Shown here: positions 1,989 to 14,038 of the stretch, piece after piece | Position numbering within the stretch: the stretch's first letter is position 1 | Layout: each line of letters opens with the position of its first letter | Source: a virus | IMG/VR virus record: IMGVR_UViG_3300031599_000051 | Coordinates: 1-20,608 of that record | Length of the DNA: 20,608 nt | Strand: one strand, 5' to 3' | Program-made: the position numbers and the translations under genes | Notes under the pieces: generated by a model | What the model was told of the DNA's origin: nothing | Seen by the model: only the letters and a program-made list of their open reading frames with translations | Database searches by the model: none

Positions 1989-2639
1989 TCAATCACCATG
2001 TATATTTATTTTTTCATACTTTCTTGGATAGGTATTAAAACTTATACAATATCGTTCCTCAGCCTTATTGACAGGTGTACTGTGCTCACACCAACTAGGA
2101 AATAACCATAGCATACCTTCCCAGGCCGAAACTTCAGTAGTGTATGTATTAAGCATATTTGGCTCAGCAAAGACTTGCATGCCGTGAAGTGGTTTTAATG
2201 GGCTATGAAGTGTTAGTGGAGGACTATCTTCGTTATTGCCTACTATCTTAGGATAAAATGCTCCACTTATTGAACTGCCTTCATGCCGATGAGGAATTGT
2301 TCTACTTCCTGGAGTTCCTTTATTAAGCCAACTATTCCAAATTCCAAGAGGCTCTAATCCTACTGTATCAACATAGTTGTCGACACATCTCTGCATAAGC
2401 CTTCTAAGTTCCGCATGGGTTTCTAAATGTCCTTCAGTACCCCAAGTGCTGCCATCTCCTTCATTTTTACTTTCTAACAGCCCGTGCGGAGAAATTAGGT
2501 CCGCTGCACCTTCTATAATCTCGTCTGGATCGTACATTCCTCTTAAATCGTATCCTATAAACACTGTAGGAAACGCAAGTACTGTTGTTGACTTCAGCGG
2601 CACTAATCTTTTGTTTTGAAATATTTCTGGCTGTTTCAT
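1989..2639 (-). CDS. 2OG-Fe(II) oxygenase-like protein (first of two)
   Basis: The start at 2639 (MKQPEIF) follows GAGAGGAT. A longer open frame extends into tRNA-Cys and is not the gene. The 216 residues fit the phage 2OG-Fe(II) oxygenase family often called 2OG-FeII_Oxy_5: NSWLNKG at 102-108, the probable iron-ligand region HRH (117-119) followed by GSSISGAFYP, then LFPSWCEH (H186) and a conserved Arg before the last strand (R197, RYCISFN). Members are expected to use Fe(II) and 2-oxoglutarate to hydroxylate a substrate; the substrate here is unknown. It has its own consensus promoter just after tRNA-Cys. A diverged paralogue lies at 16409-16987. Confidence 0.8.
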   Translation of the reverse strand: MKQPEIFQNKRLVPLKSTTVLAFPTVFIGYDLRGMYDPDEIIEGAADLISPHGLLESKNEGDGSTWGTEGHLETHAELRRLMQRCVDNYVDTVGLEPLGIWNSWLNKGTPGSRTIPHRHEGSSISGAFYPKIVGNNEDSPPLTLHSPLKPLHGMQVFAEPNMLNTYTTEVSAWEGMLWLFPSWCEHSTPVNKAEERYCISFNTYPRKYEKINIHGD

Positions 2640-2661
2640 TATGATCCTCTCTACACTTATA

Positions 2662-2690
2662 ATTATACTATATTTTTTAATAAAAGTCAA
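2662..2690 (-). promoter_or_regulatory. Sigma70-type early promoter for the oxygenase gene
   Basis: TTGACT (2685-2690), 17-base spacer, TATAAT (2662-2667). It sits in the gap between the tRNA-Cys 3' end and the gene, so the oxygenase need not depend on tRNA read-through. Confidence 0.8.
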
Positions 2691-2699
2691 GTAATGATT

Positions 2700-2773
2700 T
2701 GGAGAGGGTGCCCGGAGTCGAACCGAGATAAACGGATTTGCAATCCGTTGCATAGCCATTCTGCCACACCCTC
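2700..2773 (-). tRNA. tRNA-Cys (GCA)
   Basis: A cloverleaf is readable on the minus strand. The acceptor GAGGGTG pairs with CACCCTC, the anticodon loop is TTGCAAA (anticodon GCA), the T arm carries GGTTCGACTCC, the discriminator is U, and the CCA end is encoded at 2700-2702. It is the last tRNA of a five-gene array. Confidence 0.93.
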
Positions 2774-2856: not shown

Positions 2857-2933
2857 TGGTCGGAGTAGTAGGATTCGAACCTACGACCTCTGCGTCCCAA
2901 ACGCAGCGCACTACCAAGCTGTGCTATACTCCG
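2857..2933 (-). tRNA. tRNA-Pro (UGG)
   Basis: The acceptor CGGAGTA pairs with TACTCCG. The anticodon stem CTGCG/CGCAG encloses TTTGGGA (anticodon TGG), the T arm contains GGTTCGAATCC, the discriminator is A, and CCA is encoded. It is separated from its neighbours by 4-5 bases. Confidence 0.93.
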
Positions 2934-2937
2934 TAAT

Positions 2938-3021
2938 TGGTGGGGAGTAATGGAATCGAACCATTCATGAGCTTCCTCGGCGGATTTACAGTCCGCTGCC
3001 ACACCTTGTAGCATACTCCCC
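2938..3021 (-). tRNA. tRNA-Tyr (GUA)
   Basis: This is a class II tRNA with a long variable arm. The acceptor GGGGAGT pairs with ACTCCCC, the anticodon loop is CTGTAAA (anticodon GTA), the T arm contains GGTTCGATTCC, the discriminator is A, and CCA is encoded. Confidence 0.93.
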
Positions 3022-3026
3022 TAAAT

Positions 3027-3101
3027 TGGCATGCGAGCAGGGATTCGAACCCCGACTAACGGTTTTGGAGACCGCTGTGCTACCATTAACACCACTCACA
3101 T
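3027..3101 (-). tRNA. tRNA-Trp (CCA)
   Basis: The acceptor ATGTGAG pairs with CTCGCAT (one G-T). The anticodon stem GCGGT/ACCGT encloses CTCCAAA (anticodon CCA), the discriminator is G as expected for Trp, and the 3' CCA is encoded. It is the first tRNA of the array and lies 10 bases downstream of a terminator. Confidence 0.93.
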
Positions 3102-3111
3102 ATAAACTTTC

Positions 3112-3146
3112 AAAAAAAAAGCCCTTAACAAATAAATGCTAAGGGC
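3112..3146 (-). terminator. Intrinsic terminator upstream of the tRNA array
   Basis: In the minus-strand RNA, GCCCUUA pairs with UAAGGGC around a 12-base loop (3121-3146), followed at once by nine U residues (3112-3120). It is the clearest terminator in the window. Confidence 0.85.
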
Positions 3147-3174
3147 CGCTTAAATAACTTCTTAAAAAGTCACA

Positions 3175-3234
3175 TCAAGACAACCCCAGCTGTGCCGGGC
3201 ACCATATATAAAATAACCATATTGCTTGTCTCAT
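3175..3234 (-). CDS. Possible 19-residue hydrophobic peptide
   Basis: The ATG at 3232-3234 follows AGGAAG with 6-base spacing, on the short promoter-to-terminator transcript. The peptide is MRQAIWLFYIWCPAQLGLS, hydrophobic and aromatic over residues 4-13, long enough to insert in or lie on a membrane but short for a full transmembrane helix. Nothing can be said about function. It may be a leader peptide or a micro-protein. Confidence 0.4.
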   Translation of the reverse strand: MRQAIWLFYIWCPAQLGLS

Positions 3235-3264
3235 GTTCGTCTTCCTATTTCTTATTATGTATTA

Positions 3265-3293
3265 ACTATAACACACTTATTTAGCAGTGTCAA
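3265..3293 (-). promoter_or_regulatory. Sigma70-type early promoter ahead of the short transcript and tRNAs
   Basis: TTGACA (3288-3293), 17-base spacer ending in TGT (extended -10), TATAGT (3265-3270). The TGA inside TTGACA is the stop codon of the gene at 3290-3526. Confidence 0.82.
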
Positions 3294-3604: not shown

Positions 3605-3811
3605 TTAATGCTGTACTCCGTTTATAATGTCATCTAGTGCTTTTAATGTTACATTATAATGTAACGAATCTTCTTCACCCCATGTTGCACAATAGTCTTT
3701 TCCTGCGTTGTCTGCAAGTTCTTTACTGCTGTACACTCCGTGGAAACGATTCCATCCATCTCCCATTTTTTTAAAGGTATGCACGATATATATGTTAGTA
3801 GTTGTATTCAT
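3605..3811 (-). CDS. Small phage protein, function unknown
   Basis: This 68-residue protein contains IYIVHTFKKMGDGWNRFHGV followed by a helix (SKELADNAGKDYCATWGEE). The pattern suggests a small alpha/beta protein. The start at 3811 overlaps the stop of the glycosyltransferase gene (ATGA) and follows AGGA at 9 bases, so translation is probably coupled to it. A longer in-frame start at 3832 lies inside the upstream gene without a site and is rejected. No family is recognised. Confidence 0.7.
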   Translation of the reverse strand: MNTTTNIYIVHTFKKMGDGWNRFHGVYSSKELADNAGKDYCATWGEEDSLHYNVTLKALDDIINGVQH

Positions 3812-4650
3812 TTCCAGTTGTCCTGTACCCATTTGTCTTTACAGTAATGTGGATTAGGATCACCGTGGAAGACAGCAATACTTGTTTCGTTTAGTATCTT
3901 AGGATCACCTGCAAGTTGAAAGTCTCTAGTTCCTCTAGCGCCATGAGTCATTTGAGGTTTGCCTCGCATTTCCCACTTGTAACTTTGTATCCATTCTTCG
4001 GGCCAATATACATAATTGTCTTTAATTGCGAATCTAAGCCAGTCTTGATCACCTTGGAACCGTCTTGAAATACTTTGTATATCATTCATGTATTCGTGGT
4101 ACACATGTGCATGTTGGCCTGTTTCTAATCTAAATATGCTAGAATTAAACTTATCGTAATTTTTCATTACGTGTCGATTAAAGTCACGTATAATTATAAA
4201 CTCGCCCGGCCTATAAGAAAACAACTTATCCATATTCTTAAACACAATCATGTCTAGATCAAGAAATAGTATAGTGCCTTCTAGTCCTAACTTGGGATTA
4301 AAGAACATTGGTTTATACCACCAACCTTCTATGCCCGGCATAAGTTCTAAGTCAACTACTTTAATACCTAAATCTAGATTAGCAGGATTTTCTGTAAAGC
4401 ATATAAATTCGTGATCAACTGTAAGATTACGCTGGACCATACGATATAGCTTGTTCACATATTCGGGACCGTACTTGTCTCCCCATTTCAAACAAACTAC
4501 GTAGTATTTTCCAGTTGGATCAGGTGTAGCATGCGTGATCGCCGGCTGCTCTACAGGAGTTATACTCTTGTCAACGGGTCGACGCCCTTTGGTAGCATTC
4601 TTTCTTTCCTTGCGTTCCGCTTTAGTTTCACCTGTAATATACTTTTTCAT
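3808..4650 (-). CDS. GT8-like glycosyltransferase
   Basis: After a basic tail (residues 1-35), the protein has a GT-A-type fold pattern: YYVVCLKWGDKYG (49-61), FICFTENP, and the metal/nucleotide-sugar motif FLDLDMIVF (DLD at 131-133). Later come GDQDWLRFAI (acceptor region) and VFHGDPNPH near the end, as in family 8 glycosyltransferases. It is expected to move a sugar from a nucleotide-sugar donor; the acceptor could be DNA, a virion protein or a host glycan. It starts 3 bases after the QueD-like gene and overlaps the next gene by ATGA, so the three form one operon from the promoter at 5162-5190. Confidence 0.85.
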   Translation of the reverse strand: MKKYITGETKAERKERKNATKGRRPVDKSITPVEQPAITHATPDPTGKYYVVCLKWGDKYGPEYVNKLYRMVQRNLTVDHEFICFTENPANLDLGIKVVDLELMPGIEGWWYKPMFFNPKLGLEGTILFLDLDMIVFKNMDKLFSYRPGEFIIIRDFNRHVMKNYDKFNSSIFRLETGQHAHVYHEYMNDIQSISRRFQGDQDWLRFAIKDNYVYWPEEWIQSYKWEMRGKPQMTHGARGTRDFQLAGDPKILNETSIAVFHGDPNPHYCKDKWVQDNWK

Positions 4651-4653
4651 TTT

Positions 4654-5133
4654 CTAAGAATCTGTAAATTTCATCTTCTGAACTTCGAATGGTGTGTAGA
4701 TAGCACTATTAGCACCATGCTCGGAACACTCAACTGACTCACACCAACAACGGTTATCAGTTGCTTCACGTATAAGATTGTCAGCGAATGTCCACGCATG
4801 TTTAGCAAACATTTCTGCACCAACACCGTCAAACTCTCTTACTTCACACAAGTCTAAATCTTGTAGAAGATAAAATTCTTCTTTGTGTGGATCAGTAACA
4901 TCTACACAAGTTTTGTGATCAAAACTATCTTCGAGCCAAGCCTTCAAAGGTTTAAGCCCACCAAAGTCTACTGCCCAGTTTTTGTGATCTAATCCACTAC
5001 ACCCAAATGTAAATTTAAATGCTAAACTGTATCCGTGTAATAGATGACAGTGTGAATGATCTGCGTTAGGTTGACGGAACACCGCTGATAGCCCGATGTT
5101 GTGACCGTATGTTTTAGTTGAATAAAATGCCAT
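4654..5133 (-). CDS. QueD/PTPS-like protein with altered zinc site
   Basis: This 159-residue protein matches the 6-carboxytetrahydropterin/6-pyruvoyl-tetrahydropterin synthase family, which makes pterin or 7-deazaguanine (queuosine) precursors. Matching elements are C29 four residues before H33, WAVDFGGLKPLKAWL (53-67), the catalytic pair D72-H73, GAE (E107) and VEC (E135). Of the three usual zinc His positions, only H33 is kept: F19 stands for the first and Y35 for the last, with extra His at 26, 28 and 30. So the metal site is rebuilt or lost, and activity cannot be assumed. It has its own perfect promoter. No other queuosine-pathway gene is in the window. Confidence 0.85.
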   Translation of the reverse strand: MAFYSTKTYGHNIGLSAVFRQPNADHSHCHLLHGYSLAFKFTFGCSGLDHKNWAVDFGGLKPLKAWLEDSFDHKTCVDVTDPHKEEFYLLQDLDLCEVREFDGVGAEMFAKHAWTFADNLIREATDNRCWCESVECSEHGANSAIYTPFEVQKMKFTDS

Positions 5134-13950: not shown

Positions 13951-14038
13951 TGGAGGAAGATGTGGGATTCGAACCCACGGAACCTTGCGGTTCAACTCCT
14001 TAGCAGGGAGCTCCGATCGACCACTCTGGCAATCTTCC
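13951..14038 (-). tRNA. tRNA-Ser (GCU)
   Basis: A class II cloverleaf on the minus strand. The acceptor GGAAGAT pairs with ATCTTCC, the anticodon loop is CTGCTAA (anticodon GCT), and the variable arm GAACC-GCAA-GGTTC is long, as expected for Ser. The T arm contains GGGTTCGAATCCC, the discriminator is U, and CCA is encoded at 13951-13953. It stands alone between the small genes and the ligase. Confidence 0.92.

Follow-up and report, generated by a model that had tools for sequence, protein, structure and literature searches.

Ribosome-mediated (leader-peptide) attenuation is defined in PMC1183508. In the trp, his, ilv and pheA leaders, a short open reading frame (ORF) carries the regulatory codons, an antiterminator and a terminator exclude each other, and the position of the ribosome decides which of the two will form (PMC1183508). 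Leader-peptide attenuators also precede genes for aminoacyl-tRNA synthetases (pheST, leuS and trpS, and hisS in bacilli), where a cognate codon governs the supply of charged tRNA (PMC1262725; PMC2965389). T-box leaders, too, feed tRNA charging back on transcription termination; these recognize uncharged tRNA by direct binding and do without a leader ORF. It has long been asked why tRNA genes are present in phages, and when they are expressed.

Here we describe a unit from a marine virus of bacteria that is very likely a ribosome-mediated transcription attenuator controlling the tRNA genes themselves. It lies in a 20.6-kb virus contig (‘the window’, by which we mean the whole stretch of 20,608 nucleotides analysed) and comprises, in order along the minus strand, a promoter, a ribosome site, a 19-codon ORF, a terminator and five tRNA genes (Table 1). 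The unit resembles the trp, his, ilv and pheA leaders in its short ORF with regulatory codons and in its predicted pair of exclusive hairpins. Unlike them, its output is tRNA genes instead of enzymes; its leader carries codons of several kinds, each operon having its own set to match its tRNAs; and it has no clear 1:2 hairpin, the predicted default of the ribosome-free RNA being read-through. In the classical biosynthesis attenuators the regulated genes make the amino acid that is sensed; here the regulated genes are tRNAs. Nearest in purpose are the synthetase attenuators, but these control the charging enzyme with codons for one amino acid, whereas the viral unit would control the tRNAs themselves with a list of codons. 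T-boxes differ in mechanism, and no T-box was found in the unit by Rfam, either at the gathering score or at E values up to 10.

The mechanism class, then, is known; the tRNA-gene output, the multi-codon sensor and the viral setting appear to be new. In the full-text literature we found no attenuation of tRNA genes, and no attenuator that acts on tRNAs in phages, with subscription journals thinly covered and a prior description possible. We consider it probable that such units are virus-encoded tRNA thermostats—the first attenuators with tRNA genes as output—in which the peptide’s list is rewritten as the array changes, and that they cause phage tRNAs to be expressed only when the host supply for the listed codons is limiting. 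Through them, leader-peptide attenuation would reach beyond enzymes and synthetases to tRNA genes, and into viruses. By listing the codons that the array serves, the sensor would say, in the sequence itself, that the virus monitors supply for those codons, and the idea of tRNA supplementation becomes directly testable.

The unit and its relatives

Table 1. Features of the leader unit and the tRNA array in the window
Feature	Positions	Strand	Basis or remark
Promoter TTGACA-17-TATAGT, TG before -10	3265..3293	-	11/12 consensus matches; expected start near 3258
Ribosome-binding site (Shine-Dalgarno, SD) AGGAAG	3241..3246	-	sequence
Leader ORF MRQAIWLFYIWCPAQLGLS*	3175..3234	-	homologous ORFs intact in 57 distinct leaders
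Putative sensor codons ATA4 (3222-3220), TGG5, TAT8, ATA9, TGG10, TGC11, CCG12 (3198-3196)	3196..3222	-	cognate to five tRNAs
Antiterminator hairpin, ORF end + terminator 5' arm	3138..3190	-	predicted fold, arm swaps
Intrinsic terminator (attenuator stem + U tract)	3112..3147	-	sequence; compensatory changes in relatives
tRNA-Trp(CCA), first regulated gene	3027..3101	-	Trp first in 99/100 loci
tRNA-Tyr(GTA)	2938..3021	-	
tRNA-Pro(TGG)	2857..2933	-	
tRNA with CAT anticodon	2775..2851	-	ARAGORN: Met; probably tRNA-Ile2 reading AUA
tRNA-Cys(GCA)	2700..2773	-	

An earlier note on this DNA described a promoter and a terminator about 150 bases apart, enclosing an ORF with a ribosome site, and this description holds (11/12 promoter, AGGAAG, 11-pair stem). 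The stem of the terminator spans 3147-3120, with its 11 pairs followed by eight T. Consensus scanning alone finds no more promoters in the window than chance provides (23 found, 22.9 expected), and no more terminators (5 found, 4.8 expected), so evidence for the unit must come from elsewhere. It is conservation across 100 loci, not consensus scores, that lifts the unit above chance.

A homologous locus, L003, was reached with a glycosyltransferase as probe. Further loci came from a scan for tRNA-Trp genes followed by two scans with DNA patterns, the first representing the terminator and the second the pairing arm; the collection of leaders demanded an SD-like motif. The 100 related loci represent 57 distinct leaders, and share the order promoter, SD, ORF of 15-22 codons, terminator and tRNA array. 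The promoter matches at least 10 of the 12 consensus positions in 50 of 56 related leaders, and tRNA-Trp is the first tRNA detected at 99 of the 100 loci, a universality partly ascertained because the initial scan used tRNA-Trp, a requirement absent from the two later scans. An ordinary promoter and terminator that adjoin a tRNA array by accident would be in keeping with the chance frequency of consensus hits in the window. The unit's recurrence at 100 loci, in a conserved order and with co-variation, already refutes this explanation, to which we attach next to no likelihood.

Other searches define the reach of the family. The upstream 78-aa protein, used as a probe, found no relatives, and among isolated phages BLAST with the leader as query gave short chance matches only. 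Three matches to a leader-specific pattern, TGGTGCCC...GGGGTT..., were all due to chance, in coding DNA, and the single match of the terminator pattern in a bacterial genome, that of Anditalea, has no tRNA array. Ochrobactrum phage OC matches the tRNA-Trp, but has no such leader. The leader is absent from the arrays of all nine isolates inspected (PA5oct, Phosso, phiM12, Cr30, OC, SBP1, AS4, RPP1 and EcP1), and so the unit is not generic to phage tRNA arrays. One leader-bearing contig, of 275 kb, encodes a terminase nearest to those of PA5oct-like Pseudomonas phages (~54% identity) and a Sinorhizobium jumbo phage.

Leader codons and the tRNAs of the array

The decisive clue, unremarked in the earlier note, is the match between the codons of the leader and the tRNA genes that follow. 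The codons of interest in the peptide, MRQAIWLFYIWCPAQLGLS, are, in order, AUA, UGG, UAU, AUA, UGG, UGC and CCG: codons for Trp, Tyr, Cys and Pro together with two AUA, which are the specificities of the five downstream tRNAs. Of the 12 codons that follow the start codon, seven are cognate to the array. Given the codon usage of the window, the chance of at least seven in 12 is 0.0002, and the chance of covering all five specificities with 12 codons drawn at random is 0.0004. The AUA assignment depends on the CAT tRNA. The annotated E. coli tRNAs nearest to it, and to its counterpart in L003 (the two compared), are tRNA-Ile, and so it is probably a tRNA-Ile2 that reads AUA. The AUA content of leaders could, conversely, help to identify tRNAs, since doubled AUA flagged such ‘Met’ CAT tRNAs as probable Ile2.

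We envisage the following sequence of events. RNA polymerase would start near 3258, and a ribosome would begin the 19-codon leader behind it. Should aminoacylated tRNA for UGG, UAU, AUA, UGC or CCG be scarce, the ribosome would stall no later than codon 12; the last part of the ORF would then pair with the terminator's 5' arm, which would block the terminator and allow the five tRNA genes to be transcribed. Were the tRNAs plentiful, the ribosome would reach the stop codon and cover the end of the ORF, the terminator (3147-3112) would form, and transcription would end after ~147 nt. The net effect would be negative feedback on tRNA supply, by a sensor that lists the tRNAs under its control. Features legible in the DNA underlie this scheme: the architecture, the codon/tRNA match and its co-variation, the mutually exclusive predicted hairpins and the co-evolution of their arms. 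From these we infer that ribosomes translate the ORF and stall on it, that antitermination occurs in the cell, and that the signal is a shortage of tRNA during infection.

The match extends to other viruses. The leader of L003, MKNTRQIISNIWCPPFGRGLF, precedes tRNA-Trp, Pro, a CAT tRNA and Cys, an array without tRNA-Tyr; it has three AUA codons and no Tyr codons, and retains I, W, C and P, including the triplet WCP. Co-variation was measured on the 49 leaders for which the end of the array is visible, by counting the non-Trp cognate codons in the stall-sensitive zone; the patterns that collected the loci sit in the terminator and the pairing arm, outside the sensor codons. We observed 149 such codons compared with 86.8 +/- 6.9 when the arrays are permuted among leaders (z 9.0; 0/3000 as high), and with 111.0 +/- 5.7 when they are permuted within leader families (z 6.7; 0/3000 as high), nominal p values being optimistic because the loci are mutually related. 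Codons after the zone, which serve as an internal control, do not track the array (44 vs 42.5; z 0.4, and 0.6 within families). Individual tRNAs contribute unequally. AUA is present in all 13 leaders that have an AUA-reading tRNA and in 6 of 36 without it, and at least two AUA codons in 12/13 and 0/38, respectively; a Gly codon accompanies its tRNA in 3 of 4 leaders, and is found in 0 of 45 others; a Cys codon does so in 27 of 27, and in 12 of 22 without. Among the same 49 leaders, Ser, Gln and Tyr codons are associated more weakly with their own tRNAs, and the association is not significant for Pro and Arg. The match is imperfect, in that Cys or Tyr codons occur in some leaders whose arrays lack the corresponding tRNA. 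All 57 distinct leaders have an SD and an intact ORF, and in the 49 the zone of that ORF is enriched in candidate regulatory codons.

UGG occurs within the sensor zone of 48 of the 49 leaders. This, and the near-constant leading position of tRNA-Trp, would suit a classical amino-acid attenuator that senses mainly tryptophan starvation through UGG, the other codon matches being incidental; low charging and low tRNA supply are, moreover, inseparable by sequence. We regard that explanation as improbable. The non-Trp codons follow the array, down to the choice of AUA among the isoleucine codons, and only tRNA genes come after the leader, with no gene for amino-acid biosynthesis. Nor does the peptide itself appear to be the product, as the earlier note had allowed in proposing a micro-protein. 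A functional micro-protein on its own short transcript would account for an ORF that is intact in 57 distinct leaders and has a WCP or WPP core; we give it scarcely any credence, since residues vary with the tRNA set, the codon match depends on position, and the C-terminal GRG(M/L)S is the translated pairing arm, dictated by RNA pairing.

Predicted folding of the leader RNA

Control of the tRNA genes by attenuation requires that stalling at the sensor codons alter the fold of the RNA, and in silico it does. In our stall scans, the ribosome covers 12 nt, counted from the A-site codon's first base, and the transcript ends in the terminator loop. For the window, the antiterminated fold is predicted at -18.5 to -28.3 kcal/mol for stalls through CCG12; once the ribosome is at codon 13, the antiterminator drops to -8.5, and then to -1.7 kcal/mol at the stop. 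Across 55 leaders, its predicted mean is -20.6 kcal/mol for a ribosome at Trp but -0.8 for one at the stop; in 53 of 54, the last permissive codon falls 0-3 codons past Trp. Stall position at the regulatory codons thus decides the modeled fold. The free antiterminator hairpin is also unusually stable (-23.8 kcal/mol, z -4.4, 0/200 shuffles), and is predicted to form without a ribosome. The predicted default is therefore read-through, with efficient translation turning the operon off, and the default-off 1:2 hairpin of the trp type appears to be absent or weak; a small hairpin, formed locally by the codon for the second W and those for C-P, does not compete with the antiterminator. When the full-length transcript is folded at equilibrium, the terminator persists even if the ribosome is placed at Trp; antitermination would therefore have to be kinetic, taking effect during transcription, as it does in attenuators.

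Comparison of relatives bears on both hairpins. In the terminator, 20 cells show double changes, compared with 3.9 in shuffles. Counted on the alignment, antiterminator co-variation is weak, in part because the pattern that found many of the loci fixed the sequence of one arm; the antiterminator was also weak by RNAalifold on a MAFFT alignment, owing to misalignment of the loop, and an arm-swap test was used instead. In 16 loci selected for the diversity of their arms, own pairs sum to -255.4 kcal/mol and swapped pairs to -219.7 +/- 9.4 (z -3.8), and 1 in 20000 permutations was as good. Thus GGGGUUUGUUU pairs with AAACAAGCCCC in L003, GAGGGC with GCCCUC in L134 and, in shortened form, GGGUUGU with GCGGCCC in the window. 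Predicted folds and arm co-evolution together argue that antiterminator and terminator are mutually exclusive.

The earlier note had offered three roles for the unit, and of these an attenuator of tRNA expression is strongly supported, by codons that match the tRNA genes and co-vary with the arrays. Structure and peptide are both conserved in relatives, in the pattern of an attenuator, and the reading survives this comparison. A second role, that of a phage small RNA, would need a discrete trans-acting transcript of ~147 nt ended by its own terminator. The spacing of promoter and terminator would allow one, and the expected RNA folds more stably than dinucleotide shuffles (z = -3.1; 0/200 equally stable). 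This role is very improbable all the same. It leaves the co-varying codons and the overlap of antiterminator and terminator unexplained, and the unit always sits before tRNA genes; no Rfam family of small RNAs or leaders, and no family other than tRNA, reaches threshold, with weak, mixed matches below it. The ~147-nt RNA would instead be the terminated product of attenuation.

Other leaders and neighboring genes

Two further loci have different arrays and unrelated switch sequences, and appear to follow the same logic, as independent-looking cases. L135 (tRNA-Trp, Cys) has C-L-C-W within the sensor zone, and its switch, GUCCGGG with CCCGGAC, differs from the others. L189 has the leader MIFTWQDNQPGSTTQGV (2600-2720, minus strand), with the run W-Q-D-N-Q-P, before an array of Asn, Trp, Asp, Gln and CAT tRNAs; its switch is GGGGUCU with AGACCCC. 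An L189-specific pattern found no further leaders, so that one locus of this type was found. A Pro(GGG) tRNA is possibly present, undetected, in the L189 array. Another candidate, L143 (MVDIISKVV...), was dropped because its predicted fold is indifferent to the position of the ribosome. A second type of leader (MKLTLTTVEYSTLGSSNPGADVCGVCK...), with the same style of terminator, occurs 0.4-0.6 kb before large tRNA arrays in L224, L229, L245 and L246, and in these a stretch resembling the boxA of rRNA operons (GTTCTTTAACAATTTAGATA) follows promoter-like sites and precedes the first tRNA.

Elsewhere in the window, two perfect (12/12) matches to the sigma-70 promoter occur on the minus strand, at 3600-3572 and 5190-5162, and a lone tRNA-Ser(GCT) is found at 13951-14038, directly 3' of a protein gene. 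A gene for a QueD-like 6-pyruvoyl-tetrahydropterin synthase (4654-5133) adjoins that for the glycosyltransferase (3808-4650), and a 2OG-Fe(II) oxygenase is encoded at 1989-2642. These three genes possibly serve DNA modification or auxiliary metabolism.
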